In this document: positions 3,107-61,624 of the stretch, piece by piece
Position numbering within the stretch: the first letter of the stretch is position 1
How the letters are laid out: every line of letters begins with the position of its first letter
From: an uncultured Bacteroidales bacterium
GTDB taxonomy: Bacteria > Bacteroidota > Bacteroidia > Bacteroidales > UBA932
Assembly: GCA_900320185.1 (NCBI GenBank)
Contig: ONRD01000003.1
Location: 97,916-161,915, forward strand
Reading direction: 5' to 3'
Length of the DNA stretch: 64,000 bases
Notes under the pieces: generated by a model
What the model was told of the DNA's origin: nothing
The model's input: only the letters and a program-made list of their open reading frames with translations
Database searches by the model: none
Translations under genes and position numbers: made by a program

Positions 3107-5788
3107 ATGAAGACAAGATATGCCATTATCGCCCTCGCCGTCATCCTCCTTGGTTACGGCAAGGCCGCGTACGCCCAGAGGACCGGTGTCCGTGAAGAAG
3201 TGCTCTCCGACTGGAACAAGTCTTCCGGATTGGACTGCATCTATGACTTTTCAAAGAAACACCTGACCCCTGCTCCTAAAGGCTACGAGGCGGTCTACAT
3301 CGGCCATTACGGCCGCCACGGCTCCCGCTATGCCTACTCGGGGGATGCCTACCGCATCATACACGACATGCTCCTTGAAGGATTGGAGGCAGGCAACCTT
3401 ACCGCCTACGGCAAGACCCTGCAGGAGAGGATGGTCCCTTTCTGGGAGAATGTCAGGTATCGTGTCGGAGACCTTACCGCGCTGGGATGGGAGCAGAATG
3501 ACAGGATCGGCGCGGAGATGGTCAAGGCATATCCGTCCGTTTTCCGTAAAGGGAGTTTCGTGGATGCCTGCTCCTCTCCTTCGGTCAGGTCCATCCTGAG
3601 CATGTCTGCCTGCTGCGGTGCCATCTCCAGGCTGGCTCCCCAGGTGAAAGTCTACGAGCATCAGGGCATGACGGACCTCCAGGCCACCCGCCCCAACATG
3701 GGCGGCAATCCTTTCAGGTACGAAGGTCCGGAGAGCGTGTTCCCGTACGGTGAAACCTCGAAAGAGTTTTTCCTGCGGCGTTTCCCCGGGTACAGGGACG
3801 TCCTCGCAAGGATATTCAAGGACCCGGACAAGGCTCTCGGGGAGAGGGATCCCTACACCGTTTTCTTCCATCTCTACATGTTCGTCGCCGGCATGGCTTC
3901 GCTGCCCGAGGCGGAAAGGATGGACGTGGACGGATTCTTTACGAAGGAAGAGTTCGCCACCCTTTGGGAAATCGACAACTATGAGCGTTTCCGGGAATAT
4001 CATTCCTACCGCACCGCCTGCTCGTCGATAGTGGACGACATGGTCGCGAAGGCGTCCGAGGCCCTTGCCTCCGGAGTGCGCGGAGCCCATCTCCGCTACG
4101 GTCACGACCATGTGGTGATGCCGCTGGAGATGATAATGGACATCGACGGCTTCGATGAGGCGCCCGCCGATGCGGACGACCTTGTCTATTATTTCCAGAC
4201 ATTCCGGTCGCCGATGGCAGCCAACATCCAGATGGTGCTTTTCAAGCCCGTGCGCGGCTCCGGGGATGTCCTTGCGAAAGTACTCCTCAACGGGGAGGAG
4301 GTCCGTCTGGGCGACCTCCGGGCTTATTCCTGGCCATATTACAGGTGGGAGGACATGAAAGCCTACCTTAAGGAAAGGACTGACCGCTTCGTGTACCGTG
4401 ACGGCCGTCCCGAACCGGAACCGGCCCCCGAGCCGGAACCGGAGTACCTGTCTTCGAAGACCACGGTCGCTCCGGGGACGCCGGTATGGTCTGCCGCAGA
4501 CCAGGCCAGGGTGAGGACCGAGGCCTACAGCCACGTCAATTACAATGAAGAAGCCGTTCCTTCCTACACGCTTCCGGACCCGCTGGTCTTCTCCGACGGG
4601 AGGAAGGTGACTTCAAGGAAACAGTGGCCGTCCCGGCGCCGGGAGATCCTGGAAATATTCCAGAGCCAGATGTTCGGAGTCCTTCCTCCGCCTCACGAGA
4701 TCTATCTCGAGACCCTTGAAGAGGGTCCCGCGGTCGCAGCGACACCGGCGACCAGGCGGCAGGTAAGGATGTGGTTCTCTCCCGACAGGACAGGTCCGAA
4801 GCTTGACTGGCTGATCATCACTCCGGACTTCGTCCAGGGGCCTGTCCCTGCGGTGTTGCTGCTCAATTACGGCGGCAACCATGAAGTGCTTCCCGACAAG
4901 CAGATCCTCCTTCCAGAGTCCTGGCTCAGGGAAGCCCCCCACAAGGCTTCGGAGGAGACCAGGGGCCGGCTGAACCACGATTCCGACAATCTGACCATAT
5001 TCCCGGTGAGCATGCTCCTTGCCAGGGGATATGCGCTCGTGACGTGCTGTTACTGTGACATTTCCCCCGATCCGGACCCGCTTCTCGAGGACAACGGCAA
5101 GATCCTTCAGGACACCTTTGCCTACAGCGGCGTTTTCTCTCTCTGGGGAGAGAGGGACCCTTCCAGGGACGACAACACCTCTTCCCTGATGGCCTGGGCC
5201 TGGGGACTCATGAGAGGAATGGACATGATCGAGAAGGACCCTCGCCTGGATGAATCCAGGGTGGTCCTTACCGGATATTCAAGGCTTGGGAAGGCAGCCC
5301 TGGTCGCCGGAGCTTTCGACGACCGTTTCCCGGTCACCGTGCCGATACAGACCGGCGGAGGCGGGGTGCCGCTTGCAAAGAGGCACTTCGGGGAGACGAT
5401 CGCGACCGAGGTTTCTTCCTTCAGGCACTGGTACTGCAGGGCCTATGACAAGTATGCCTACGACACGGCTTCCATGCCTTTCGACCAGCACATGCTGCTG
5501 AGCTGCTTTGCCCCGAGGGCACTGCTTGTCGAGGGATTCAACCAAGGCTGGTTCGACACCCGCGGAGAGTTCCTTGCCGTCCAGGCTGCCAGCCCGGTGT
5601 GGAAGCTGCTCGGTCAGGACGGTTTGCCCGCTGTGGCCTGGCCCGGGGATTTCGACACTTCGGCGGTAGGGAAGACGCTGGGTTACATCCGCCGGGCCGG
5701 CGGACACGGGATAGCGTCCATCGACTGGATCCGGATGCTTGATTTTGCCGACGGGGTGTTTTCCGGGAAGGCTACTTCGCGGAAGTGA
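3107..5788 (+). CDS. Secreted histidine acid phosphatase-CE15 esterase fusion
   Basis: An 893-residue two-domain protein. The ATG at 3107 is chosen over an upstream in-frame start because it begins a clean signal peptide (MKTRYAIIALAVILLGYG, cleavage near AYAQ). Residues about 25-425 form a histidine phosphatase of the MINPP/phytase type: the RHGSR motif is at residues 70-74 and a late GHDH motif is near residue 335. A Pro-Glu-rich linker (about 434-445) leads to an alpha/beta-hydrolase like CE15 glucuronoyl esterases, with the nucleophile motif GYSRLGK near residue 721 and a C-terminal GGHG histidine near 865. The protein would act in the periplasm or outside the cell. A phosphatase fused to a glucuronoyl-type esterase is unusual. 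The substrates are inferred from family only. Confidence 0.8.
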   Translation: MKTRYAIIALAVILLGYGKAAYAQRTGVREEVLSDWNKSSGLDCIYDFSKKHLTPAPKGYEAVYIGHYGRHGSRYAYSGDAYRIIHDMLLEGLEAGNLTAYGKTLQERMVPFWENVRYRVGDLTALGWEQNDRIGAEMVKAYPSVFRKGSFVDACSSPSVRSILSMSACCGAISRLAPQVKVYEHQGMTDLQATRPNMGGNPFRYEGPESVFPYGETSKEFFLRRFPGYRDVLARIFKDPDKALGERDPYTVFFHLYMFVAGMASLPEAERMDVDGFFTKEEFATLWEIDNYERFREYHSYRTACSSIVDDMVAKASEALASGVRGAHLRYGHDHVVMPLEMIMDIDGFDEAPADADDLVYYFQTFRSPMAANIQMVLFKPVRGSGDVLAKVLLNGEEVRLGDLRAYSWPYYRWEDMKAYLKERTDRFVYRDGRPEPEPAPEPEPEYLSSKTTVAPGTPVWSAADQARVRTEAYSHVNYNEEAVPSYTLPDPLVFSDGRKVTSRKQWPSRRREILEIFQSQMFGVLPPPHEIYLETLEEGPAVAATPATRRQVRMWFSPDRTGPKLDWLIITPDFVQGPVPAVLLLNYGGNHEVLPDKQILLPESWLREAPHKASEETRGRLNHDSDNLTIFPVSMLLARGYALVTCCYCDISPDPDPLLEDNGKILQDTFAYSGVFSLWGERDPSRDDNTSSLMAWAWGLMRGMDMIEKDPRLDESRVVLTGYSRLGKAALVAGAFDDRFPVTVPIQTGGGGVPLAKRHFGETIATEVSSFRHWYCRAYDKYAYDTASMPFDQHMLLSCFAPRALLVEGFNQGWFDTRGEFLAVQAASPVWKLLGQDGLPAVAWPGDFDTSAVGKTLGYIRRAGGHGIASIDWIRMLDFADGVFSGKATSRK

Positions 5789-46566: not shown

Positions 46567-46644
46567 GCCCTGGTGGTGAAATGGTAGACACGAGGGACTT
46601 AAAATCCCTTGGCCCGAAACGGCCGTGCGGGTTCGATTCCCGCC
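46567..46644 (+). tRNA. tRNA-Leu(UAA), split gene, 5' part
   Basis: The acceptor 5' strand GCCCTGG, D arm, anticodon arm with loop CTTAAAA (anticodon TAA), long class II variable arm and the full T arm (GCGGG-TTCGATT-CCCGC) are intact. The 7 nt that follow (CAATTGG) cannot pair with GCCCTGG, so this copy lacks its acceptor 3' strand. The missing CAGGGC plus discriminator A lies at 59698-59704, immediately before a strong terminator. Joined, the two parts give a perfect 7-bp acceptor stem and an 85-nt tRNA. The gene has been cut by the intervening element and should not yield a mature tRNA as it stands. Confidence 0.93.
46638..46644. other. Left attachment core
   Basis: TCCCGCC at the 3' side of the tRNA T stem. 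The same 7 bp recur at 59691-59697, where they lead into the displaced tRNA end. This is the probable crossover core of a tyrosine-recombinase integration. Confidence 0.75.
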
Positions 46645-46646
46645 AA

Positions 46647-46666
46647 TTGGACAACATTTGGACAAC
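46647..46666 (+). repeat. Direct repeats at the left island end
   Basis: TTGGACAAC occurs at 46647-46655 and again at 46658-46666, 11 bp apart, just inside the island. Repeats one helical turn apart beside an att core are typical of integrase arm or core sites. A similar pair (TTGGCAAC and TTGGCGAC, about 59764-59781) follows the tRNA 3' end beyond the right core. Confidence 0.55.
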
Positions 46667-46757: not shown

Positions 46758-48038
46758 ATGCCTAACGTATTAGAGTTATTTGCAGGTATTGGCGGCTTCC
46801 GGGTTGGTCTTGAACAACGTGCTAATGCAAGACTCGGAGGTGATTTTTATCATGTAATATGGAGTAATCAGTGGGAACCTAACTCTACCATTCAGCATGT
46901 TTGGCGAACATATGAAAGAGTCTATGGACTGGGCTCATGTGTAAACGAGGACATTGAGCAGGTTGTCAAACATCCGGAAACTATTCCAGACGCCCAGATG
47001 ATAGTGGGAGGATTCCCCTGTCAAGATTATTCTGTTGCACGCTCTCTTCAACAGGCCGAAGGAATAGAGGGACAGAAGGGCGCTTTATGGTGGAGCATAA
47101 TTCGACTCATTCAAGATAAAGAGGTAGCGGGGAATGCCCCCCGTGTTATTTTCTTGGAAAATGTTGACAGGTTAATACACTCGCCAGCGAAAAGACGGGG
47201 CCGCGATTTTGCTATCATTCTCCAGTCTTTATCGGATTTGGGATATAGTGTTGAATGGCGAGTCATAAATGCTGCGGACTATGGTATGCCTCAGCGCCGT
47301 CGTCGCACCTTCATTCTTGCGTATAGAAACGGTTCACCATTATGCCAGGGTCTGGATAATCCAACAGGATGGATTTATAATAACGGTATAATGGCGGAAG
47401 CCTTTCCTGTAGAACCCGGAAACGACAACATCGAAGGTCGGGCCATTAAAGAGAATACGGAATGGGATTTGGCAGATATAAGTGACCATTTTAACGAAGA
47501 GACCCCACAGAAGAGGGTATTTGAAAATGCCGGGGTTATGGTCCATGGGGTGTTTTATACTGCAAAAGTTAAGCCTCGCTATAATGGACCTAGAATAACA
47601 TTAGGGGATATTGTCGCTGAAACTCCTAGGAAAGAAATAACTGAAGATTATTATATCAACAATGACTCAATTGAGATCTGGCAGCGAGAGAAAGGTAGTA
47701 AGAAAATAGAGAGGGTAAGTCGAACGACAGGGTTTAAGTATCTCTACAGTGAGGGGCCAATGGTTTTTCCAGATGCTCTTGACAAGCCATCCCGTACGAT
47801 TATAACAGCCGAAGGAGGACAATCTGCATCAAGGTTCAAACACGTAATCGAAGATCCTGTTACTCACCGCTATCGCCGATTGGTTCCTTCCGAGTTAGAA
47901 CAATTGGATATGTTTCCCCGTGGACATACAGCGGGAGAGACAGCTGTTAGAAGGGCCTTTTTCATCGGGAACTCTCTAGTCTGTGGTATAGTAGAAAGAA
48001 TAGGTGTTGTTCTGGCACACCGAGATTGGGGCGAATAA
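46758..48038 (+). CDS. drmMII: DISARM-associated C5-cytosine DNA methyltransferase (DrmMII-like)
   Basis: A 426-residue 5-methylcytosine methyltransferase. The AdoMet motif I is LELFAGIGGFRVGLE at the N-terminus, motif IV with the catalytic Cys is GGFPCQDYS (about residue 86), motif VI is ENV (about 133) and motif VIII is QRRRRTF (about 178). The target-recognition region spans about 210-340, and motifs IX-X follow (GNSLVCGI at the end). In class 2 DISARM the methylase marks self DNA; the recognition site cannot be read from sequence. It faces the other DISARM genes convergently instead of lying in their operon. Codons 5 and 7 are TTA. Confidence 0.9.
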   Translation: MPNVLELFAGIGGFRVGLEQRANARLGGDFYHVIWSNQWEPNSTIQHVWRTYERVYGLGSCVNEDIEQVVKHPETIPDAQMIVGGFPCQDYSVARSLQQAEGIEGQKGALWWSIIRLIQDKEVAGNAPRVIFLENVDRLIHSPAKRRGRDFAIILQSLSDLGYSVEWRVINAADYGMPQRRRRTFILAYRNGSPLCQGLDNPTGWIYNNGIMAEAFPVEPGNDNIEGRAIKENTEWDLADISDHFNEETPQKRVFENAGVMVHGVFYTAKVKPRYNGPRITLGDIVAETPRKEITEDYYINNDSIEIWQREKGSKKIERVSRTTGFKYLYSEGPMVFPDALDKPSRTIITAEGGQSASRFKHVIEDPVTHRYRRLVPSELEQLDMFPRGHTAGETAVRRAFFIGNSLVCGIVERIGVVLAHRDWGE

Positions 48039-48040
48039 TA

Positions 48041-48073
48041 AACCAGAAGTCCCTCAAAGAAGAACTTCTGGTT
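48041..48073. terminator. Hairpin between convergent DISARM genes
   Basis: A perfect 10-bp stem, AACCAGAAGT with ACTTCTGGTT, with a 13-nt loop lies between the methyltransferase stop and the DrmB stop. It lacks a T-run but is placed to act as a bidirectional terminator. Confidence 0.5.
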
Positions 48074-48098
48074 GCAGGATAGCGAGAAATACACCGAA

Positions 48099-50210
48099 TC
48101 AAAAGGATAGTTTTCTGAAATAACCAAAAGAATCATTAACGAGTGCTTGTCTGTCTAGCCCCATGTTTCTGAATTCGCAAGAAGTCTCAGAAATCATCTC
48201 GCAGGAAAAACAAGCCGCAAGATTCATAGTTTCTTTGTCGCGCTCCCAGCAGATTGGATCGCTGGAGCAATGTCTTGCCCGGTCCATGGCCCTTTTGATA
48301 GTTCTTTCAATCAGCGCGCTTTTCCCTTGCCATACGAGTCCACCCATACTACCTTCGGAACCCTCGGCTGTATAGATAAGCACACCACACATGCGGTTCG
48401 AAAAGTAGATTCTTTCAGATAAGCTGGCCGAAGGATACCCGCATGAGAATTCCATCTCCTTAATAATGGAGTGCGCAAAAGTGTGAAGCATATAAAACCT
48501 ATGCGGGTTGCCATATTTGCCAAGCATGACTGAAAGGATGTTGTTCTTCTCGTCATCCTCTTTCTCCCGGTATCGATTTTTGCTGGCCTCATCAGTACTA
48601 ATAAGTGTGTCCCAAGCTTTTAAGGTCTCTTCATTGAACTGGAAGAAAAGGCCTTCTCCATACTCCTGTATCGCAGGATACACGGTTATTTTATCCTTTG
48701 GAAGTTGAGAAAGTTTCTGTCCCTCCGGATAGTCAATACCTCCCTTATCATTTCTTGTAGGAGCAGGTGACTGAACGCGGAAGAAGTTTAGCTGTGTTTT
48801 TGTGATGCAGAGCAGAGGTATTTGGCTTATTTTGGAGAAATAGGGCAAAAGCGAGTTCGGTAAATCAATCGTGTTGGTCTTCAAATTCTCGCTGTCAACG
48901 CTGTCTTGATTTGCAAAAATATCATACTCAGCAAATTTCATTTCTTCCTCTTTATCGTCCGATTCTGAAGAAACGTGGAGAAAACGATTTTTGATATTTT
49001 TAAGCTCTGAATCAGATAAACTGATTCCCGCCATCATTTGTAGGGCAATTTTAATGGGGCCATCTCCACCATTAGTCTCCCACCAATCTTTTTTAGTTGC
49101 TGAGGGATTTGAGATTAATAAATTCGGGAAGGCAGAGGTATTGAGAAAGGATAGAGCTTTTTGCTCTTTCTCGTTAAGCGTATCTGGGATGAAAAGGCCG
49201 CTATGTGCATCCGCAAAATAGATACTTGGACTGGTGTTCAGAAGAACACGCATGACCCCAGGTTTGCCGGAAAGCCTACAGGTACTATCTACCGGAATCT
49301 CTTCGTTTCCAGAACGACGCCTCCATGGCATTTCCTTAGAACAAAGAGGACGGAGGTTTAGAATACCTTCCAGAGAAGTCTTCTTTTTGCACTTAGTACA
49401 GCGGACATAACCAAAACCTTCAGTATGGCCGATGTTTTCAGAAAACTCCAAAGAATGCTTACCACCGCAACTACAGGTGGTGTCTGAATATCCGAACAGG
49501 TCAAAACCCTCGTCATAGAGTTTATCGCCCACGTTCGGGTCGTGACTTGCACTGAAGAATTTGTCCCAGGGGATATCAGATATATGTCCATTCGGGCAAG
49601 CAAGAACGAGTTGTATCTGTTTTAGAGGGGAATACCTGTCCACAGGCTCCCCTTTCTTATTAGTAAAGCTCGTCTTGCTTTTCGCATCCATTGGAGGTGC
49701 AAAATTTCTTAGGCTGTTATTGTGAGAGGCTTTCCACTCTTTCTTCCAGTCATCCAGCTCTTGCAGCCTTCCATCTTTTGGACTATACATCCAGCGAGGA
49801 AATAGGATTGCCGGAACTGAAAAAACAGAATCAAAGAACTGCTTCCCAGGATTGTTCTCTTTAAAATCCTGGAACAGAGGATTCTGTTCATACTCCTGAC
49901 GATTATACTCGTCCAGTTGCATATGAGGAATTGCCACAAGCGTCTTCAGGTTGGTCATCCCCTCTTTTTCTTGCAGATACCTGAGAAAAGAAGGGTTAGA
50001 TATCGGAGTGACAGCAAACTGTTTAAGCTTTTTGGGGTCTGAAGAGTCGGCCTGTTTAGCTCTCATAATAAAATCCCACAGTTCGATAGAAAGGGGCATA
50101 ATGAAGACCCCCATTTTGGTAGGGATAATGGCTCCAACCCCATATGTGGAAGATAGAAGCTTATACTGGTCAACCTCTTGATTGAACTGCTGTTGTGAAT
50201 TAATCGTCAT
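48099..50210 (-). CDS. drmB: DISARM protein DrmB (DUF1998)
   Basis: A 703-residue protein with the DUF1998 domain at about 570-690: HTFAHSIIKEMEFSCGYPS, LIYTAEGSEGSMGGLV and a C-terminal cysteine set (CSSDPIC, NLAACFSC, TSCEF). Two more zinc-ribbon-like pairs lie at about 215-280 (CPNGH, CSCGG, CTKCKKK). DrmB forms a complex with the helicase DrmA that loads on unmethylated phage DNA with a 5' overhang. It is the last gene of the minus-strand operon, 2 nt after the DrmA stop, so it should be translationally coupled. Confidence 0.93.
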   Translation of the reverse strand: MTINSQQQFNQEVDQYKLLSSTYGVGAIIPTKMGVFIMPLSIELWDFIMRAKQADSSDPKKLKQFAVTPISNPSFLRYLQEKEGMTNLKTLVAIPHMQLDEYNRQEYEQNPLFQDFKENNPGKQFFDSVFSVPAILFPRWMYSPKDGRLQELDDWKKEWKASHNNSLRNFAPPMDAKSKTSFTNKKGEPVDRYSPLKQIQLVLACPNGHISDIPWDKFFSASHDPNVGDKLYDEGFDLFGYSDTTCSCGGKHSLEFSENIGHTEGFGYVRCTKCKKKTSLEGILNLRPLCSKEMPWRRRSGNEEIPVDSTCRLSGKPGVMRVLLNTSPSIYFADAHSGLFIPDTLNEKEQKALSFLNTSAFPNLLISNPSATKKDWWETNGGDGPIKIALQMMAGISLSDSELKNIKNRFLHVSSESDDKEEEMKFAEYDIFANQDSVDSENLKTNTIDLPNSLLPYFSKISQIPLLCITKTQLNFFRVQSPAPTRNDKGGIDYPEGQKLSQLPKDKITVYPAIQEYGEGLFFQFNEETLKAWDTLISTDEASKNRYREKEDDEKNNILSVMLGKYGNPHRFYMLHTFAHSIIKEMEFSCGYPSASLSERIYFSNRMCGVLIYTAEGSEGSMGGLVWQGKSALIERTIKRAMDRARHCSSDPICWERDKETMNLAACFSCEMISETSCEFRNMGLDRQALVNDSFGYFRKLSF

Positions 50211-50212
50211 AA

Positions 50213-53200
50213 TCAGTCATTTTTAATGTTAATAACTGAGGATTCTGCAATGTCTCTCAAACTGTGAGGAACGCTCCAAGAGGTATTTGCCTTCTCTTCC
50301 TCATATGCATCTATTGAAAGATACAAAGGGTTTTTCCTCGGATTCTCAAAGGATTCGATGATGGAGTTCCTATTGAGCCATTCGTCAAGTGCTTTCTCGA
50401 CGAAGGAATCTATCATCTGGAGTCCTTCGGCGGTGAGAAGGTCACGAAGAAGTTCATTCTGATTACTCTGAATGGAGTTCATCCTTTCGGAAAAGATGGT
50501 GTGTATTCTGTTCTGAATCTCATTTTTCTTCGCCGAATCCAGGTGCCGAATATCCTTATCTGTCGCTAAAGAGGGGAACTCGTGTCGAATAATTGCCGCA
50601 AGGACCGCAGGCATGTATTTTTCAATTGCCTGTGGAGAATACGGTGTTATGGAGATAGGGTCAACATAGAAGTACATCTTCTCATGGAATTCCCGGAACT
50701 TCTCAAAGTGTGATAGATCACGGGCCCTATATGGGTTATGAAGGGTAAAGACTATGCCGAGTTCGTCTCTGGCAACACGAGACGATGCCTGTATATATTC
50801 AGATTTGTTCCGAGGCATTGAGTTGACAATCATAAGATTAAATCGAGACACATCGATACCTACAGAAATCATATTCGTTGCAAGAACAAAATCAGGGGGT
50901 GTGGTCCCGCGAACAAATTCTCCATCTTGCGTGAAATGCGGTACTCTTGTGTTTGGATTCCATTTCTTCTGAACTTCACCAAGAGACTTTACTATCTCAG
51001 CTCCGTTAAGGCGACCAGTTAGTTCACAGTTGCTAAATGAACGGTTAAGAGCGTAAAAGCACTCCAGCATCCACTTATGACGTAATACACGATGATATAC
51101 CTGTCTGGTGTATTTAGGAAACTCTGTGGGGAATTGCGCATCAGTATTTCCCACATCCTTTTTGCTGTTGAAATAGGAAATGAGGGTAAAGTAGTAATCT
51201 ACAGCCTTAATGAAATCAGGGTTATTAAAGTCGTTCTGGTGTTGAGCTTCGAATAGAGCGCGATGGGTTAAGCAACAGGCAGCTAAGCGAATTTGAGTGT
51301 ACATAGAAGTTCTTCCCGTTGGGAGAACTCCGATATAGCGACGTTTGGAATCGTATTCCTCTGCGTTGTCTTTGCGACGCTTATAAAAGGCGAAGAAGGA
51401 ATCATCGAAATCCAGTCCGTTTTTAGGGAACACATTAACGTTGCGGTCATAAAGAGCGAGAATCTGGAGGTCGGTATTTCTGGTTGTCGCTGTTGACGAA
51501 ATAATCTTAGGACGGATAGTAATACCATTGGGGCCCGGTCTGCTGGAGAGGGTGTCAACCGCATTCTCAAAAAGACCTACGGCAGATCCGAGAGGGCCTT
51601 CAAGGAGATGAAGTTCATCCTGGATAATTAGATCGGGGGTGAGCTTGTTTAATTTAAACAGGCGTCTGGAATCATTCTTTGGATCTTTTGAGACTTTATG
51701 AGCGATAGCGGCGAACTTATCAACTGTCCCGAAAAGGAGAGTCGGGGGAGTGGCATAGATAAGTTCATCGCATAGAAGAACAGGAAGCCCATCTTCAAAT
51801 GCGCAAAAAGCATTTTCGCATGTAAGGGTCTTTTTGTCTTCGTTCCATCTCATTGGCGCTCCGCACCATGGACAGACCTTGCTTTCGAAGGGAATCTTCG
51901 ATGGCTGGTCATTGTTCCAACGCTCGCCCTCCGTTTTCAGCCCTTTTTCTCTGGCAGAATCATCCCATGTGTTAGGGAGAGCCCCGGCCCCGACGAACAA
52001 GCCGATATTGATTTGCTCATCACCAAGTTTATATCGGCCCCATTTTCGAATTTGTTCGAGAGCAAGTATTAAGCGTAGAGCACGTTGGAACTGCTGAGTT
52101 GCAAGAAGTCGGAGTGTATAACGCATGATAGCCGTCGTACCTCCGCCTTTCAAATTCGTCAATCGACGATGCAGAATAGAGAAGGCAATCAGGCCAAGGT
52201 AAGCCTCAGTCTTGCCACCTCCCGTAGGGAACCACACTAAGTCGACCAAGTTGTTTCTTTTTTTCCAAGTGGGGTCCGAAGGACTTTGTACGATTCCATC
52301 CAGGTTCAGAAGGATAAACGCGAGCTGGAACGGTCTCCATGCAGCTGGCCCCTTGCCTTTACGAATTTCAGGGTCAGCGTCTTTATAAAATGATTCATCA
52401 AGGTCATTGCAATCATCTCCATGTGCAAGTGCTAGCTTCTTGTTGCTCTCTGAAGAATGCCACAACTGCATGAACATGGCCGTGTTCATAAGACGGAACG
52501 CGAGCATTACTTTCGGCTGGGAAAGAAGATAAATATTATCCAGAAGACGAGTGTAGTCTTTTAAGCACTGTTCCCGTACATGCTCAATGAGGCCTTTATG
52601 GGCGGGGATGTCATCGACAAAGGTGCTGTCAATCCATTTCTTGTAAGAGTCTACAAATAGAGTGAGTCCCTGTTTGATGCTGTCATCACTCTCGCTGCTA
52701 AGCGTAGAAAGGCGCTTGAACTCAAGATAAGCCGTGCTTTCAATCAATTTCTCTGTATGTGATAATCCATCTGTTTTTACCACTTTCTGGGGAACAACAT
52801 CTACATCGGGACTATCGTGCATGGGGAGAAATTCTGACCAAACGCGTGTTGCCTTCTTCGGGAACCAATCAACAGAACATAGATGTCCAGCGCCATAGTC
52901 TTCAATTTTTCTGTAAAGAAAGCGAAGGCGAGCCTGTTCTTTATCGGCGGAGTCAAATTCATCGTTTAGATGATATGGGGAGAGATGTTCACATTGAATT
53001 TCAACCTTAGCACCAAAAAATGCTTTCGTGTTAACCCCCTCCGTAACAATAGAGTAATATCGTTTCTCATTTTCTTCAAACGGCGCTGAAGTGTTCTCGA
53101 CTAGAACTTTGAGGTATGTGTTATCGTTGCTTGCGTCACGCGTGTCCTTGGTAAGTTGAATCCATACAGAGATTTTTGCATGTTCACTCTCGATTGGATT

Positions 53201-54208
53201 GCCATCTTTGTCGTAGAGAGGAATATCCTTAAGCCCATTTTCTTTCGTCGGCTTGATTGTAAGCCTCGCTCCGTCCATAGAAAAATTTACACGGCTGAGG
53301 TCAAGGGGAAAATCGAAGTTACGAGCCACCCAAAAACCATATCCGTTTGCGCTGAGCATAGGCATGAGATCCCGAAAGTAAGACAGCAACGTTTCCTTCT
53401 CTTCAATCATTCGGATGGTTTCAGTGCATTTCGCGATATTATTGGTCTTTGTGTTGTTGAGATTGCCAAAGACTCGTTCCTTGTACGAAGAAAGGAGTAC
53501 CCCGCTTTCCTGAATGTCATCTCCACGTTCACTTGCAATCTGAAGGGAGAAGGATTTTTCCAGAGTATTTAGGCATCCTTGAATAATACCGAAGCTCTTC
53601 TTGTCTGCTGTGAGGAAATAAAGCCGGTTTTCCCGCAGAATGAAATAGTCAGCAAGAACGACATTTACCGAAGTCCCATCATCATTAGGAACCGTCGTGG
53701 ATGACATCAGCAGTTGAGAAATGTTGTCGAGGTCTGCGGAATCGACCTTGACGAAAACCTTAGTAAAACTTTTGCTTCCGATTTTCGTGTAGAAGCGTCC
53801 AGAAAGACGGACAGTAATGTCATTGGCTGTGATTCCCGGTTTACCGATGCAGCAGGAAATGCCGAATGAGTCCGGGAAGCGTTGTGTCAACTGCTTAATA
53901 TCCTCTTCATCATATAATGAAAACCCTTCTTCGTCAGAATCTTCATTACGTGGAAGCGTGTTTTCCAGCGATTCATCTTCATCCTCCGGGAGGGTGGACT
54001 CTTCGTCATTGTCAGAGGCTTTAGTTTTCTTCGGAAACAGAATGCCTGAGCAATAGATTGAGCCAGGGGTCACATCCAAAATATCAACATCATCGGCTTC
54101 TCCGTCCATGCCGAACTTGTATCCGTAAGCGCCCGGACCAATCATTTGCTCGCGAACGAAGCCGGTGAGGCTTTCTCTCTTCTCGTTGATGAAAGTATTA
54201 TTCGTCAT
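50213..54208 (-). CDS. drmA: DISARM helicase DrmA
   Basis: A 1331-residue SF2 helicase matching DrmA. After an N-terminal segment with a highly acidic tract (about 66-103), the Walker A motif FPTGGGKTEAYLG lies at about 664 and the DEAH-box variant DELHLLEG at about 863. A four-cysteine zinc motif (CPWCG, then CENAFC) lies between them at about 783-800. The C-terminal RecA domain has ATNMISVGIDVSRFN and motif VI QASSRVARDELG (about 1140). It is the core DNA translocase of DISARM. Its start overlaps the DrmE end by 11 nt. No catalytic helicase motif appears missing. Confidence 0.94.
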   Translation of the reverse strand: MTNNTFINEKRESLTGFVREQMIGPGAYGYKFGMDGEADDVDILDVTPGSIYCSGILFPKKTKASDNDEESTLPEDEDESLENTLPRNEDSDEEGFSLYDEEDIKQLTQRFPDSFGISCCIGKPGITANDITVRLSGRFYTKIGSKSFTKVFVKVDSADLDNISQLLMSSTTVPNDDGTSVNVVLADYFILRENRLYFLTADKKSFGIIQGCLNTLEKSFSLQIASERGDDIQESGVLLSSYKERVFGNLNNTKTNNIAKCTETIRMIEEKETLLSYFRDLMPMLSANGYGFWVARNFDFPLDLSRVNFSMDGARLTIKPTKENGLKDIPLYDKDGNPIESEHAKISVWIQLTKDTRDASNDNTYLKVLVENTSAPFEENEKRYYSIVTEGVNTKAFFGAKVEIQCEHLSPYHLNDEFDSADKEQARLRFLYRKIEDYGAGHLCSVDWFPKKATRVWSEFLPMHDSPDVDVVPQKVVKTDGLSHTEKLIESTAYLEFKRLSTLSSESDDSIKQGLTLFVDSYKKWIDSTFVDDIPAHKGLIEHVREQCLKDYTRLLDNIYLLSQPKVMLAFRLMNTAMFMQLWHSSESNKKLALAHGDDCNDLDESFYKDADPEIRKGKGPAAWRPFQLAFILLNLDGIVQSPSDPTWKKRNNLVDLVWFPTGGGKTEAYLGLIAFSILHRRLTNLKGGGTTAIMRYTLRLLATQQFQRALRLILALEQIRKWGRYKLGDEQINIGLFVGAGALPNTWDDSAREKGLKTEGERWNNDQPSKIPFESKVCPWCGAPMRWNEDKKTLTCENAFCAFEDGLPVLLCDELIYATPPTLLFGTVDKFAAIAHKVSKDPKNDSRRLFKLNKLTPDLIIQDELHLLEGPLGSAVGLFENAVDTLSSRPGPNGITIRPKIISSTATTRNTDLQILALYDRNVNVFPKNGLDFDDSFFAFYKRRKDNAEEYDSKRRYIGVLPTGRTSMYTQIRLAACCLTHRALFEAQHQNDFNNPDFIKAVDYYFTLISYFNSKKDVGNTDAQFPTEFPKYTRQVYHRVLRHKWMLECFYALNRSFSNCELTGRLNGAEIVKSLGEVQKKWNPNTRVPHFTQDGEFVRGTTPPDFVLATNMISVGIDVSRFNLMIVNSMPRNKSEYIQASSRVARDELGIVFTLHNPYRARDLSHFEKFREFHEKMYFYVDPISITPYSPQAIEKYMPAVLAAIIRHEFPSLATDKDIRHLDSAKKNEIQNRIHTIFSERMNSIQSNQNELLRDLLTAEGLQMIDSFVEKALDEWLNRNSIIESFENPRKNPLYLSIDAYEEEKANTSWSVPHSLRDIAESSVINIKND

Positions 54209-56606
54209 TGGTTGAAATGCTCTTTATGTTTTTTATGGATATCCGTTCTTCAATGATTGTCTTTATTGCCTCTAAGTCACCAACAGAAGAAATATCAAAC
54301 AGATTCATGGCTTCCTCATGTTGCCTTGAGACCTTTTTGTAATATGCTTCAGTGATTTCCTTACCGACGGTAATACTGAGAATGTCGTCAATAAGGGCAT
54401 TGGTTGTTCGAGAGTCCCGAATGGTTTTCAGGTATCGACTATAGAGGGTATTAAGATATGAATGGAAAGAAGAAACACCAATATAATCGAAAACCACCCG
54501 ACGCGTCCGTTTCTTCCTCGGTAGCATTGTTTTAGAAGCCGGGTTAGACCAATCCTTTAGACGGTATTCAAGACTCTTTTCATCCAATTTAGGTGAAAGA
54601 TCCTTTACGACTGAGTCAAAGCCGACAGATTCAATTTTGGCTTTAAGAGCCAACTTCCAAATCTCTCCTTTCGAGAAGTCAAACCCGGGATAAACCGAAC
54701 TTAGGGCATCGCGAACAGCAGAATCCACAGCACTGCTCTCTCGTTTTTCGTCCAGAAGTCCCTCAAGTTTTCTTTCCAACTCTGAAAGGAACTGAATCCC
54801 CGTAATCTCAGGATTGTCAACGAGTTCACGGAGTTTCCCGACATGCAGAGTCTTGTCAGAAAGACGATAAATGACGGGTTCAGTGTCAATCGGGAAAGAG
54901 ACGCTGCCATCGGCCATTTCCAAGCAGACTTTATCTGCCCCGGAAGAAGAGGTATCGTTCTCGTCGAACCCTTCTTCGTCGCCAAATATATTATATGATT
55001 GAGGCGCGACAATTCCACCCGAGTATTTACCTGGAGTCCAATGAAACACTTCACGTCTGAAATTCGAATCAAGAACCTGATTATAGTGCTTCATCCGGTT
55101 TCCTTCGCTCCTTGAAATGAGACCTTTGAAAAGAATCTCAGGAATGAACTCTAAAAGCTGTTGACCGGGGTTTACAATGTATGGGTCATACGAATTGGGA
55201 TAGGATGAAGGGTAACTCTTGCATTGAAGGAACCTCAGGACAACAATCTTGTTCTCAGTTGCTGGAATGATGCCTTTTTTCGGAATCAAATCGGAAGGCG
55301 TTCTGAAAACAATCTTTTTGTCGGGGAAAAGCGTCTGGATTTCTGCTTTGATTCCATCGGGAGTGGATGCTTCTAAGACGAGCGCGAAAGTGTCATCATC
55401 GGAGCAGAATTCATTAATCGCAGGGATGATAGAATTGGACCAGATCAGCCGAATGTATTCAAATATTGAAATAGAATTTTCCTGCTCGAATTCGTTGTCT
55501 ATTGTCTGAAGATATTTATAGAAAATGGCTTCGCATTTTTGTGTGGCGCATGATGCAATTATATTGCAGAGCACGCGCTGCCTCCGGTCGAATCCCTCAA
55601 GGAGGGACGCTACCTCTGGGAAATATTTGTCATAATCTTCCCCACACTCAATACTTACCCTCTCTTCTGAATAGCATAACCCAGCTGTGTTCTGGACCGC
55701 ATTTGAAACACTATAGCAGATGAAGTCCTCCCCGGACCTGGATGCCCCATTATAAATGTTATTGAAATGGTTCTTTTCTTCAACAAGGGTCCTTAGGGAG
55801 TAAGTCTTGTCACTTATCTTGAATACAAACAGATTCTCGACGGTATACCCTAGTTGAGATAGTTTTGACAAAACTTCCGAAGAGTTAAAAGAACGGTATC
55901 TAGGGGAGTTTACATACATGATAAACAAATTCCCATGCCTCGGATTGGCTTTGCTAACAAAATCTTCTTTGAGCGCACTTTTGGTCCTTTGCTTTAAAAG
56001 GTCAACATCTTTGTCAGTAACGACATTGAAAGGTTTATAAATCTGGAAACCTTCATAAATATAGCGGCTCAAAAAAGAACTACGCTTCTGTGGGAGAAGG
56101 CTCCTGTCACAAACAAGGACATTAGAGTTTGAAAACGGGAAGTATGAACTACCGTTTTCAGATTCCAAGAGGGTATATGCAATTGCATTGAATTTCCGTC
56201 TGGCATCCCCGAATTTTCTTGTCACTTCTTTCCCTTTCGCATTATAGTAGGTGAAATTCTTCTGGAATTCTTTGAAATCTGGCGAAGTGTTTCCTGGAAT
56301 CTCTTCAGGATGCATATGCTCTTTCGTAATATCCCGCTTATATTCTCCATTAAAAACACCAAACCTTATTATGATGTAATTCGCCAGGATGTTTTCGAAA
56401 TTGGGAACAACTCTTGGAAGGTAGAAAATGGGTGAATGCTGCGAGGATTTATCATTCAGAAAGAACTGAAAGGCGTTTTCAACTGTCTCCAAAACAGGCC
56501 GGGATTTCTCAATTACAGCCCGTTCGTCCAAAGGCAAGCCGAACTTCATCATTTCAATGATGCAGTCAAGTACGGATACTTTATTGCATGTGTAAGAATC
56601 AGTCAT
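54198..56606 (-). CDS. drmE: DISARM class 2 protein DrmE
   Basis: An 802-residue protein of the size and position of DrmE, the marker of class 2 DISARM; similarity is recognised over the N-terminal and central parts (FYLPRVVPNFENILANYIIIRFG, YEGFQIYKPFNVVTDKDVD). The centre looks like a degenerate RecA/helicase-type fold, without a clear Walker A. A TRP-poor, Lys/Arg-rich segment lies at about 700 (LPRKKRTRRVVFDYIGVSSFHSYL). The exact role of DrmE in interference is not known. It overlaps the NERD-helicase gene by 8 nt and DrmA by 11 nt. Confidence 0.8.
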   Translation of the reverse strand: MTDSYTCNKVSVLDCIIEMMKFGLPLDERAVIEKSRPVLETVENAFQFFLNDKSSQHSPIFYLPRVVPNFENILANYIIIRFGVFNGEYKRDITKEHMHPEEIPGNTSPDFKEFQKNFTYYNAKGKEVTRKFGDARRKFNAIAYTLLESENGSSYFPFSNSNVLVCDRSLLPQKRSSFLSRYIYEGFQIYKPFNVVTDKDVDLLKQRTKSALKEDFVSKANPRHGNLFIMYVNSPRYRSFNSSEVLSKLSQLGYTVENLFVFKISDKTYSLRTLVEEKNHFNNIYNGASRSGEDFICYSVSNAVQNTAGLCYSEERVSIECGEDYDKYFPEVASLLEGFDRRQRVLCNIIASCATQKCEAIFYKYLQTIDNEFEQENSISIFEYIRLIWSNSIIPAINEFCSDDDTFALVLEASTPDGIKAEIQTLFPDKKIVFRTPSDLIPKKGIIPATENKIVVLRFLQCKSYPSSYPNSYDPYIVNPGQQLLEFIPEILFKGLISRSEGNRMKHYNQVLDSNFRREVFHWTPGKYSGGIVAPQSYNIFGDEEGFDENDTSSSGADKVCLEMADGSVSFPIDTEPVIYRLSDKTLHVGKLRELVDNPEITGIQFLSELERKLEGLLDEKRESSAVDSAVRDALSSVYPGFDFSKGEIWKLALKAKIESVGFDSVVKDLSPKLDEKSLEYRLKDWSNPASKTMLPRKKRTRRVVFDYIGVSSFHSYLNTLYSRYLKTIRDSRTTNALIDDILSITVGKEITEAYYKKVSRQHEEAMNLFDISSVGDLEAIKTIIEERISIKNIKSISTNDE

Positions 56607-58326
56607 GCTTGTCTAGAATTAGGATGGATAGAGACTGAATAGTGCGGGACATTCCAATGTAAAGCTCAAATGTATTAAAAAACCTCTCGCAGTATACGGC
56701 TAAAATAACGTGCCGACTTTCAAGCCCTTTGAATTCAAGAATATTGGCGGTTGGCAGGACCACAGAAAAATCATCGTTAATGTTCTCTTTTGTAAGTGGG
56801 CGCGGTCCGGCAAATTGCCGTATGCCATTTAGAAGAGGCATTTCGCCAAAGACCATAACATTTTTGATGTTAGAATGGGTTAATAGGACATAGTCATTAC
56901 CTGCCCGGCGTTTAGAAACATCGTCAGAAACTTGCTTGATGTATTGAATCATGGCCATGGCATCACTGAAGTGAGTGATGGAAATGGGAAGGCCTTCGGA
57001 GGTTTCAATCTCGTTAAAGACGTGAAGAGCTGCATCAAAGTTCTCAGAATCTTTAATTTTTCTGGCGAAATTGATAATGTCCTTATTGGTTTGTACTCTA
57101 CGACAGTCCAAAAGTCGGTATTTCGCGGCATATTTTGAAATCAGTGCAGCGGAATCATCAAGATTGCGTGCTTGATTGTTATACGCTTGCTCTCTGTCAT
57201 AGAACGCCAGATACCGTCCTGATTGTAAGCCAGCCCCGATGATGGAAGACAACTCATTCAGGAGAATGTCTATACCCTTATCAAGTACATCGTGAACCTC
57301 ATCCGCAATAACATAATCGAATGGGGCATAATTGCTATTTGCCTTATAGGATATAAGTAGATTTCTCAGTTCCTTGCTCAGGGACGCGTCACGGCTGATG
57401 GTATTAATCTTCTCAAGGTCAAATGACCCTTCGGAAATCATCAGGATGAATGATGCAAAAGTGTAGACTTCGCAGTTACCTAAATTCTCATATTCAACTT
57501 TGTGCTTAAACTTTGATGCCAATAGATTATTCCAGCACAAGTAAAGACCGTGCTCACGGTTATGACGTTTTATATACGTCTTCGCAATTGTGGTTTTTCC
57601 GGTTCCGGGACCACCATCAATGAATAGGCGATGGTTGTCGGAAAGGCTTTCGATAGTGTTTTCGTCATCTGCCCGAAGCCATTCTAGGGCATCCTCTAAA
57701 TCCCTCCACGAATAATCGTTCGAAGTAAAAACGGTAGAAGCAAGGCGGTGGTTAATAAGACGATTCAGGTCATTATCGCTTAAGCGCGGAAGCGTAAGCC
57801 CACACCGAATCCTCTCTTCTTCTATAATCTTAATGCAGAAGTCAGTAAAGGACAAGCTTGAATTCTCATGCTCTTTCTTGGTCCAGACTCTTCCTGAATG
57901 CTCAGTGTCTGAGTATGCCGACATAGGGAAAGCGCAAGCGGTCGCAATGACAATCTCATCTTGTGAGAAAATGCCGTTGTTGAAAAGTCCCCACTTGTAA
58001 TCTTCAGCTTGCTTGAAGGGATCTGAGATAGTACGACTCTTCCCGTAAGCGTGATTAATGTATTTACTTCCCTGTTTCTCAATCTTGCCTCCTTTAACCT
58101 CAATAATAATTGCACCCTTTTTACAAGCCAAAAGAAAATCTATTTCAAAACGCGGCTTTCCGTTAATGGGTCGGTCGATTAAAAGATTATAAAACACATG
58201 CCAAGTCAGCGGACTATTTTCACAGTCTTTTATAATGCGTTCATACATCGTGCGCTCGCCATGTAGAGGATTACCGTTGAGATCGGTAATCTGTTCTATG
58301 GTTTTCTGACTGTGATTAACTAACAT
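56599..58326 (-). CDS. NERD nuclease-SF1 helicase, DISARM-linked
   Basis: A 575-residue two-domain protein and first gene of the DISARM operon. Residues about 20-130 form a NERD (PD-(D/E)xK-like) nuclease domain: the catalytic Asp lies in FEIDFLL and the Glu/Lys pair in IIEVKGG, followed by a late KQAEDY. Residues about 225-575 are a UvrD/DUF2075-type SF1 helicase: Walker A GGPGTGKTTIA (about 238), motif II ADEVHDVLD, motif III-like YDREQAYNN, DCRRVQTN, and motif VI YIGMSRTIQSL. The canonical class 2 set instead has a phospholipase-D protein, DrmC, absent here. It probably supplies nuclease activity, an inference from domains and coupling. Confidence 0.82.
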   Translation of the reverse strand: MLVNHSQKTIEQITDLNGNPLHGERTMYERIIKDCENSPLTWHVFYNLLIDRPINGKPRFEIDFLLACKKGAIIIEVKGGKIEKQGSKYINHAYGKSRTISDPFKQAEDYKWGLFNNGIFSQDEIVIATACAFPMSAYSDTEHSGRVWTKKEHENSSLSFTDFCIKIIEEERIRCGLTLPRLSDNDLNRLINHRLASTVFTSNDYSWRDLEDALEWLRADDENTIESLSDNHRLFIDGGPGTGKTTIAKTYIKRHNREHGLYLCWNNLLASKFKHKVEYENLGNCEVYTFASFILMISEGSFDLEKINTISRDASLSKELRNLLISYKANSNYAPFDYVIADEVHDVLDKGIDILLNELSSIIGAGLQSGRYLAFYDREQAYNNQARNLDDSAALISKYAAKYRLLDCRRVQTNKDIINFARKIKDSENFDAALHVFNEIETSEGLPISITHFSDAMAMIQYIKQVSDDVSKRRAGNDYVLLTHSNIKNVMVFGEMPLLNGIRQFAGPRPLTKENINDDFSVVLPTANILEFKGLESRHVILAVYCERFFNTFELYIGMSRTIQSLSILILDKHD

Positions 58327-60142: not shown

Positions 60143-60159
60143 TCGTGAATTATGTGCCT

Positions 60160-60738
60160 ATGACAAAGTTTTATCAAGACATTTCTGCAAGCGGAGGAAC
60201 GATACGGACTCATGAGCTACGTGAGCCCCGGGCTTACTATGGGATCAACAAAGGTATCAAATCCGGTGATGTCATTAGGATCAAGAATGGTGTTTATATG
60301 CTTCCGGAAGAACTGGCGACCACGATGGTCGATGTTGAAAGAATCGTTCCCGGTGGTGTAGTTTGCATGTATTCCGCATGGGATTATTATGGACTTACCA
60401 CTCAAATCCCTGACGGATTCTACGTTGCTATTGAAAAGCACAGGAAAGTGGTGGCCCCTGAGATTTCAGGCATCGTTCTCTGCTATTGGGAAGAGAAATA
60501 CTGCACGATGGGCGTTGAAGAAACTGAAATTGCTAATCATAGGGTTAAGATTTTCTGTATAGAGAAAAGCGTCTGCGATGCCGTAAAGTTTCGCAACAAG
60601 ATCGGGACGGAAGTGGCTGTTGAAGTTCTTAGGAACTATCTCAAGCGCAAAGATCGTAACATATCCCGCCTTATGGATTACGCAAAGCAAATGAGAGTGC
60701 TGTCAACAATGAGGCAATACCTTGAAATGGGGCTGTAA
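60160..60738 (+). CDS. abiEi: AbiEi-family antitoxin
   Basis: A 192-residue protein with an N-terminal winged HTH (ISASGGTIRTHELREPRAYYGINKGIKSG) that binds DNA and a C-terminal domain (YCTMGVEETEIANHRVKIFCIEKSVCDAVKFR) typical of type IV AbiEi antitoxins. It blocks the toxicity of AbiEii without binding it and represses the operon. The ATG at 60160 is chosen because an upstream GTG at 60145 lies before the predicted transcription start. The toxin ATG is 1 nt after the stop. Confidence 0.87.
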   Translation: MTKFYQDISASGGTIRTHELREPRAYYGINKGIKSGDVIRIKNGVYMLPEELATTMVDVERIVPGGVVCMYSAWDYYGLTTQIPDGFYVAIEKHRKVVAPEISGIVLCYWEEKYCTMGVEETEIANHRVKIFCIEKSVCDAVKFRNKIGTEVAVEVLRNYLKRKDRNISRLMDYAKQMRVLSTMRQYLEMGL

Positions 60739-60739
60739 T

Positions 60740-61624
60740 ATGGAAAAGAAAAATGTAGCGATGTCTGTTCGGGCCAAACTCCTCAACATCCGGGATTCAG
60801 TGCCCGGGACCGAATATATGCAGATTCTGCTCAGATACATTCAAGAGCGGATGTTGTATAGGCTGTCGATGAGCCTGTATCGGGATAACTTCTGCCTGAA
60901 AGGAAGTGCACTTCTCTTCGCCTACGAAAAGTTCAAGGCTCGTCCGACGAAAGACATAGATTTCCTGGGCGACAAGATCAGCAGAGACAAAGAAACCATT
61001 CGGAAAGCTTTTCGCGAGATCTGCTCAATTCAGTGCCCTGAAGATGGCCTAACTTTCGATAATGGAGAGAATGACATTAAGGTTGAGGATATTTCTTTGG
61101 ATAAAGAGTATAGTGGAGTCACAGTCACTGTGACAGCTCATCTTGACACCATTGTGCAACCTTTTTCTATGGATATTGGGTTTGGAGACATTGTTGTTCC
61201 AGAGCCCCAGGAATTAGACTATCCTCTTCTCCTTGATAATATGCCAGAGGTAAGCATCAACGCGTATTCTTTGGAGACCGTGGTTGCCGAGAAGTTTCAG
61301 ACAATGATTGATCGAGCATTGGCTAACAGTCGGATGAAGGACTTCTTTGATGTCTACTCCATTCTTTCGTCAGAATCAGAACGTGTCAAGGTAAATGAAG
61401 AAACCCTTTCTGAAGCAATTGCCTCTGTTTTCAGCAATAGAGGAACGACATATACTGAGAATCACCCGCTTTTCAATGGCGAATTCAAGAATGATCCTAT
61501 CAAGCAGACTCAATGGAACGCATTTTTGAAAAAGATGAAATACAAGGGAATTTTACCTCTGAATGAGGTCGTTGATTATATCACGGAGAAACTGTCCCCA
61601 TATTGGCTATCGTTGAATAAATGA
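60740..61624 (+). CDS. abiEii: AbiEii/AbiGii-family nucleotidyltransferase toxin
   Basis: A 294-residue DNA polymerase beta-type nucleotidyltransferase. The catalytic signature is GSALLFAYEKFKARPTKDIDFLG (read as GSALLF and RPTKDIDF, about residues 55-77), with a downstream acid in DIGFGD and the conserved ETVVAEKFQTMI/SRMKDFFDVY helices. AbiEii toxins transfer nucleotides, with GTP preferred in studied cases and tRNA modified in related toxins, stopping growth on phage infection. It overlaps the metallophosphoesterase start by 4 nt (ATGA). Confidence 0.9.
   Translation: MEKKNVAMSVRAKLLNIRDSVPGTEYMQILLRYIQERMLYRLSMSLYRDNFCLKGSALLFAYEKFKARPTKDIDFLGDKISRDKETIRKAFREICSIQCPEDGLTFDNGENDIKVEDISLDKEYSGVTVTVTAHLDTIVQPFSMDIGFGDIVVPEPQELDYPLLLDNMPEVSINAYSLETVVAEKFQTMIDRALANSRMKDFFDVYSILSSESERVKVNEETLSEAIASVFSNRGTTYTENHPLFNGEFKNDPIKQTQWNAFLKKMKYKGILPLNEVVDYITEKLSPYWLSLNK

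Follow-up and report, generated by a model that had tools for sequence, protein, structure and literature searches.

The window analysed here is a stretch of 64,000 nucleotides from an uncultured Bacteroidales bacterium (contig ONRD01000003.1, positions 97,916 to 161,915), and the subject of this analysis is a five-gene locus in it that is related to the defence island system associated with restriction–modification (DISARM). Four tightly coupled genes lie on the minus strand. The first encodes a NERD nuclease domain joined to a superfamily 1 (SF1) helicase of the UvrD/Schlafen type (56599..58326, 575 amino acids, P0005), and is followed by the genes for a DrmE-like protein (54198..56606, 802 amino acids, P0004), for DrmA, a superfamily 2 (SF2) YprA-like helicase (50213..54208, 1331 amino acids, P0003), and for DrmB, a DUF1998/MZB protein (48099..50210, 703 amino acids, P0002). 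The NERD and DrmE-like genes overlap by 8 nucleotides (56599–56606), the DrmE-like and DrmA genes by 11 nucleotides, and the gap between the DrmA and DrmB genes is 2 nucleotides. A cytosine-5 DNA methyltransferase gene on the plus strand (46758..48038, 426 amino acids, P0001) is convergent with the DrmB gene, with a 60-bp gap between them. All five genes, and the 8-nucleotide overlap, are as given in a preliminary description of the locus, made from its sequence alone, which had read it as class 2 DISARM without DrmC and with an added nuclease-helicase.

The DISARM core, that is, the DrmA helicase and DrmB as a separate DUF1998 protein, is present. DrmA matches the PADLOC DrmA profile (2.6e-174) and the solved DrmA structure 7s9v (5.9e-112); the match to NF038325 (4.9e-216) is under the equivalog cutoff (720 of 950 bits). 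Motif I of DrmA, PTGGGKT (residues 661–667; 52208..52228, minus strand), is invariant in an alignment of four sequences of its clade. DrmB exceeds the cutoff of the curated profile NF038324 (310.9 bits against 240, E 2.1e-92) and also matches PF09369 (6.9e-7). Both identities were proposed earlier, and the curated profiles confirm them.

The first gene of the operon combines a NERD domain (residues 23–112; 57991..58260, minus strand), matching PF08378 at 4.2e-9, above the gathering score, with an SF1 helicase region (56617..57693, minus strand), matching SLFN-g3_helicase at 5.7e-10. The latter has the Walker A motif GGPGTGKT (K244), motif II (D342-E343) and a C-terminal arginine (R561). We aligned 52 NERD-helicases from DrmA-bearing loci, 51 of which (49 distinct) include the NERD region, L048 being the one without it. 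Residues E24, D63, E76, K78 and Q106 are kept in all 51 rows with the NERD domain, in agreement with the earlier observation that the nuclease residues are retained, and the Walker lysine, the DE pair and the C-terminal arginine are kept in 52 of 52. Since the family was collected by similarity, part of this conservation is expected; the identity to the window protein is just 20–29% in a 12-row alignment. Judged by these residues, the NERD nuclease is intact and the enzyme is apparently active.

As to DrmC, no match to it or to the phospholipase D (PLD) families was found among the window genes scanned (PADLOC, Pfam), as previously noted. A DrmC acting in trans from elsewhere had been named as a possible objection. 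Two PLD models, PF13091 and PF00614, yield no match at E <= 0.001 in the genome of the window, which is 92.8% complete; applied to 14 control genomes, the same searches give matches in 12 and 11, respectively. A DrmC model grown from one annotated protein detects class 2 DrmC at 1e-24 and failed to label the annotated PLD protein of locus L059. We also considered 140 unlabelled open reading frames (ORFs) of 200–520 amino acids neighbouring the NERD loci: PLD and DrmC are absent from the 25 most frequent families listed, and, as 165 and 283 families matched these ORFs, rare PLD or DrmC matches are possible.

Related loci came from two samples. A DrmA-seeded scan of one genome per species, covering 84,980 species, confirmed 558 places, of which the best 80 were used, so that distant loci are under-sampled; the second sample consisted of 395 Bacteroidota genomes. 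In the latter, 27 genomes match DrmA, 7 of them weakly, and of the 19 strong ones besides that of the window, 11 have NERD adjoining DrmA and 2 have DrmC. The final set of 104 DrmA rows was formed from 109 loci and 3 added ones by dropping eight (3 duplicates, 2 with no recognised DrmA ORF, and 3 whose DrmA is shorter than 900 or longer than 1600 amino acids). NERD is present in 49 of these rows, recognised DrmC in 12, neither in 43 (contig ends truncate 19 of these loci), and both in none. When at least 4.8 kb is available on both sides (72 rows, the three added loci being assigned to this set by hand), the respective counts are 40, 8, 24 and 0. The absence of DrmC is therefore not distinctive by itself, contrary to what was initially suggested, given also that the accessible text of Bravo et al. 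2022 (PMC9142583) describes DrmC as often missing.

The DrmA tree, a quick and midpoint-rooted one, places the window in a clade of 25 rows (Shimodaira–Hasegawa-like approximate likelihood-ratio test, SH-aLRT, 100) with no recognised DrmC. Four loci of this clade (L035, L065, L076, L077) are cut by contig ends, and of the remaining 21 informative loci with intact flanks 19 have NERD; the tight operon coupling also recurs across the clade. Hence sporadic presence of the NERD gene, which had been named as a refuting observation, is rejected. Loci L151 and L152, from the order of a Bacillus genome, have the true class 2 content, DrmE-A-B-C-MII, and are joined in the tree with class 1, in the branch that bears DrmC (SH-aLRT 94, not starred), whereas the DrmA of the window is elsewhere. 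Thus the initial assignment to class 2 with a lost DrmC does not hold, and as far as the DrmA sequences tell, the window locus is a DISARM-like class outside the branch of the canonical class 1 and class 2 systems. On 85 usable rows of the tree we counted at least 8 NERD changes and 4 DrmC changes. In seven phylogenetically independent pairs DrmC differed in 0.9 on average, with the median p = 1, which is uninformative on the mutual exclusion of NERD and DrmC. As the pattern of the two genes follows clades, it is plausible, not proved, that NERD took the place of DrmC.

The association of NERD-helicases with DISARM genes extends beyond the window clade. In other phyla, too, NERD lies next to genuine DrmE, DrmA and DrmB; it shares one operon with profile-confirmed DrmE in L090, L113, L116, L125 and L141, and in L041 it directly follows a DrmE at the cutoff edge (79.6 of 80 bits). 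The NERD-helicase model has matches in 12 of 296 Bacteroidota genomes; eight of these genes, counting that of the window, are directly inside a DrmA–DrmB locus, one is at a contig end next to a split DrmE, and one, also at a contig end, adjoins a cytosine-5 methyltransferase gene, the DrmE-like, DrmA and DrmB genes of that genome being on another contig. In L169 (1–1673) a NERD-helicase gene split over two ORFs lies by a cytosine-5 methyltransferase gene at a contig end, and the DrmE-like, DrmA and DrmB genes of the same genome are on a different contig, in L035. Four actinobacterial DISARM-like loci (L060, L117, L118, L129) have a UvrD-type helicase, apparently with no NERD domain, in the position of the NERD-helicase; L060 was scanned (GajB-like), and the assignment of the other three follows weak scores of the NERD-helicase model. 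No relative of the window protein was found in the plasmids searched, and the matches listed for viral contigs include at least two distant NERD relatives.

The 802-residue protein had been called DrmE. None of the DrmE profiles of PADLOC and NCBIfam match it. It belongs to a family of 16 members (15 distinct), adjoining a second family of eight in the same operon position. Comparison of the 16-member family with 29 full-length members of the DrmE cluster by hhalign gave a probability of 91.2 (E 9.9e-7), with a colinear alignment along part of the C-terminal half; the controls (DrmB, NERD, methyltransferase, DrmA) gave 0.3% at most. Against this, some smaller subsets of the DrmE cluster produced weak values, from 0.6 to 56%; the Bacteroidota subset gave 88%. 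The identity of the cluster itself was checked on ten members, of which eight are above the DrmE_fam cutoff, up to 9.3e-227, and two (L112 and the half-protein L092) are not; among seven other members scanned, L041 is just under the cutoff, L054 matches partially, and L036, L037, L038, L053 and L056 have no DrmE match.

An additional feature common with DrmE is a C-terminal signature formed by W-K/R, a second tryptophan about 36 residues on, and a proline about nine residues further (W650-K651, W686 and P696 in the window protein; 54519..54659, minus strand). This pattern is seen in 14 of 16 proteins of the window family, in 25 of the 40 DrmE-cluster proteins with 480 amino acids or more and in 4 of 4 in the split-DrmE cluster, but the second E-like family has it in only 2 of its 8 members. 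In other ORFs of at least 480 amino acids it occurs in 34 of 430, and shuffled sequences average 0.36 of 16 and 0.79 of 40. These results support the protein as a probable remote homologue of DrmE, recognisable by profile–profile comparison alone. Such loci are probably under-called, because the curated DrmE models tried miss the DrmE branch of the window. Single-sequence searches with the window protein gave one weak broken match, besides its own, in 393 genomes of the order, and none in plasmids or in viral contigs. Several lineages apparently have a split DrmE, with an N-terminal gene of about 290–370 codons and a C-terminal one of about 470–540 (L039, L044, L045, L050, L051, L087–L089, L092–L094, L098, L102, L154); in L039, L044, L045, L050, L051 and L154 only its position identifies the N-terminal half.

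Sequence searches of the PDB with the DrmE and DrmE-like alignments had no matches. We then compared structure models of the window protein (predicted local distance difference test, pLDDT, 67.7) and of the true DrmE of L113 (pLDDT 74.2), separately, with the PDB. For the former, the ten matches at an E of 1e-3 or lower are, by entry title, without exception SF2-type motors, namely nine Snf2-type remodeller entries and HsdR, and lower-ranked matches include unrelated enzymes. For the latter, the 50 listed rows are SF2 helicase entries by title (RIG-I, XPB, Hef, Snf2, MrfA and others), except three that are chains of repair complexes, the chain being unnamed in the title. The listed rows have low template modelling (TM) scores by query, which do not exceed 0.21 and 0.27, respectively. 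Active helicase motifs in DrmE were considered and rejected: the Walker A pattern occurs in 2 of 29 DrmE proteins and in 0 of 16 and 0 of 6 proteins of the two E-like families, and DExH-like words are scattered (2 of 29, 5 of 16 and 2 of 6). Given the low TM-scores and the unconserved Walker motif, a degenerate SF2-like fold of DrmE may be suggested as a lead only.

The convergent gene encodes a cytosine-5 methyltransferase, as follows from the match to PF00145 (1.1e-55) and the PCQ, ENV and QRRRR motifs. It had been described as DrmMII-like and facing the operon; the orientation and the enzyme type are correct, but the protein is not specifically recognised as DrmMII, as its best PADLOC model is the generic type II methyltransferase, MTase_II (3.3e-148), and DrmMII is far weaker (1.7e-24). 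Within the fetched stretches of the 21 informative clade loci, a cytosine-5 methyltransferase is present in 14, six have a radical S-adenosylmethionine (radical-SAM) protein instead, L133 has neither, and both occur in none. The radical-SAM-type proteins, of 470–500 amino acids, carry the CxxxCxxC motif and head the operon (L066 3439–4866, L067 3395–4807, L068 2668–4170, L069 of Dysgonomonas sp. 520 3445–4878, L074 3391–4824, L075 3439–4851), directly before the NERD gene in five loci and separated from it by a 238-residue ORF in L068. Their assignment is by the cysteine motif and a sub-threshold Radical_SAM match in one of the six, with no Pfam family above the cutoff. The six loci form, with the cut locus L065, a single lineage sister to the window, and therefore represent a single exchange. 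No radical-SAM protein of this kind was found in the genome of the window. The radical-SAM protein may install a DNA mark.

Homologues of the radical-SAM protein occur in 14 phage records, several of them annotated as radical SAM. In one (L175, PV036431.1, 4773–7119) the homologue directly follows a DNA methyltransferase gene and overlaps its end. Another record, the 7-kb 'Bacteriophage sp.' MT837356.1 (L177, 1509–5881), has the order radical-SAM, NERD-helicase, DrmE-like, and hence probably represents a fragment of a defence island from a bacterium. No DrmA relative was found in viral contigs.

The operon block begins beside a tRNA-Leu (taa) gene (46570..46652, plus strand; ARAGORN), at which the G+C content changes from about 57% to about 44%. 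The low-GC stretch with the operon looks like a defence island; beyond the operon, at 60145–61624, it holds an AbiEi/AbiEii toxin–antitoxin-type pair. No integrase was recognised among the ten window proteins scanned against Pfam. An att-like site was considered and rejected, as between the tRNA and the window end the tRNA 3' end has no exact repeat of at least 14 bases.

Taken together, these observations make it probable, with moderate confidence, that the locus encodes an anti-phage system of a DISARM-like type, separate from the DrmC-bearing DISARM branch, with the PD-(D/E)xK NERD domain fused to the SF1 helicase as its nuclease. In such a system the DrmA–DrmB pair, an SF2 YprA-like motor with a DUF1998 canopy, would load on the DNA of an infecting phage, with free ends or single-stranded regions as the probable sites, and would sense it and translocate on it, as the solved DrmAB complex reportedly does. 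An adaptor role would fall to the DrmE-like protein, which probably has a catalytically dead SF2-like fold and would join the motor and the NERD-helicase in one complex; the NERD-helicase would then translocate on the DNA and cut it, and the methyltransferase would mark host DNA as self. A broader generalisation, which we put forward tentatively, is a separate and widespread class of DISARM-like immunity with NERD-SF1 in the place of DrmC, DrmE as a dead SF2 bridge (the functional counterpart of class 1 DrmD) and an exchangeable self-marking arm, which would be a radical-SAM protein in the sister Bacteroidales lineage and a cytosine-5 methyltransferase in most relatives as well as in the window. 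If true, the radical-SAM arm implies a DNA mark other than ordinary methylation.

Several facts weigh against the NERD domain as the effector nuclease and against the other roles proposed above. Two loci of the window clade, L072 and L133, have no NERD gene and no remnant detectable by tblastn; together with the 24 of 72 both-flank loci having neither NERD nor recognised DrmC, this means that NERD is not universally needed. The operon position of the gene varies: it is before DrmE in the window clade and elsewhere between DrmE and DrmA or after DrmB. The specificity of the NERD search is biased, as the model was seeded from DISARM-like loci, and in two of the 12 Bacteroidota genomes the gene is in other contexts. 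In the one of these two that was scanned, L167 (1468–15237), a NERD-helicase relative belongs to a locus of the SspC/SspD type, and the run of genes that holds it also includes a DrmC-like PLD gene; the module therefore occurs in more than one defence system. The SF2-like fold of DrmE comes from the above models with modest pLDDT and low TM-scores. Finally, it is uncertain whether the methyltransferase of the window belongs to the system, as its gene is separate and convergent and no cytosine-5 methyltransferase was found in the fetched stretches of the nearest sister loci.

These facts leave room for the NERD-helicase being an accessory module rather than the effector, so that DrmAB would by itself block phage DNA by translocation and unwinding, whether or not a host nuclease takes part, and NERD would widen the target range or counter phage escape. 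The loci lacking NERD and the service of its relative in a different system (L167) fit this explanation, as does the dispensability of DrmC in the tested DISARM (Bravo et al. 2022, PMC9142583, accessible text). However, the retention of NERD in 19 of 21 clade loci, the tight coupling to DrmE and the intact catalytic residues in 51 of 51 rows argue that the nuclease activity is selected within the system, and we regard a purely accessory role as rather unlikely, if deserving serious attention. Recent loss of DrmC from a canonical class 2 system, with the NERD gene as an unrelated neighbour in the defence island, would agree with the DrmE-DrmA-DrmB order, the cytosine-5 methyltransferase and the same published reports of missing DrmC. 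It is very unlikely, since the DrmA of the window is in a supported clade with no recognised DrmC, apart from the DrmC-bearing class 2 loci, so that even the present quick tree speaks against it, and since the NERD gene both overlaps this operon and is repeatedly part of it. Nor is the locus likely to be a non-defence operon for DNA repair or mobile-element maintenance. YprA-like helicases do serve in repair too (MrfAB; Bell et al. 2025, PMC12458937, accessible text), but the DrmA and DrmB profile matches with DrmB as a separate gene, the low-GC island by the tRNA and AbiE genes, the patchy distribution among the Bacteroidota genomes (27 of 395) and the methyltransferase or radical-SAM partner all fit defence better, and we consider such a function improbable.

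The locus bears on two questions. According to the accessible text of Bravo et al. 2022 (PMC9142583), it is unknown how a nuclease is recruited in DISARM, and as DrmC is dispensable and often absent, the way in which DISARM destroys phage DNA is open; a large group that has no recognised DrmC but has conserved nuclease-helicase residues provides a direct effector candidate. The exchange of the methyltransferase and the radical-SAM protein in sister loci makes the question of self-marking testable by DNA base analysis.

Comparison with known systems shows both similarities and differences. In parallel with the order DrmE, DrmA, DrmB of class 2 DISARM, the locus has a DrmE-like gene before those for DrmA and DrmB, and like class 2 it has a cytosine-5 methyltransferase and a separate DUF1998 protein. 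Unlike class 2, it has an added NERD-SF1 helicase and no DrmC, its DrmE-like protein is recognisable by profile–profile comparison alone, its DrmA is elsewhere in the tree, and its methyltransferase is convergent rather than downstream in the operon. PADLOC requires DrmA, B, C, E and MII for type II DISARM (PMC9252829, accessible text), and the surprise of a missing DrmC is lowered by the earlier reports that it is dispensable and often missing. With class 1 (DrmD, MI, A, B, C) the locus shares DrmA and DrmB, the former from a separate clade; it differs in having no DrmC in the window genes scanned, and neither the DrmD SNF2 helicase nor DrmMI is among the PADLOC matches listed for nine window proteins.

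The defence NERD-helicases of PADLOC (RTasNERD-Hel, C3a187 NERD+UvrD, Nhi) are similar in the NERD and/or SF1 architecture. The best match of the window protein to them is weak (Nhi, 4.6e-9), and several of its relatives match RTasNERD-Hel well (8.1e-72 for L046). None of these three is known as a partner of DrmA, DrmB or DrmE. A NERD-helicase in DISARM is described in no title or abstract found in the open-access literature for DISARM with NERD or DrmE.

TALON resembles the window locus in combining a YprA-family helicase with a NERD nuclease. In TALON, TBP is accompanied by a TPR-CSD fusion and by a YprA protein of the ARMADA-like kind with a fused, inactive RNase H domain (Bell et al. 2025, PMC12458937, accessible text), whereas the window locus has DrmA and DrmB as separate proteins, a DrmE-like protein and an SF1 helicase fused to NERD; no TPR, CSD or TBP was found by Pfam among ten window proteins. 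The Figure 1 legend of the same preprint places many uncharacterised DISARM-like classes in the DISARM-like clade, and its accessible text names NERD for TALON alone. The window locus, with its NERD-helicase, is very likely one of these DISARM-like classes.

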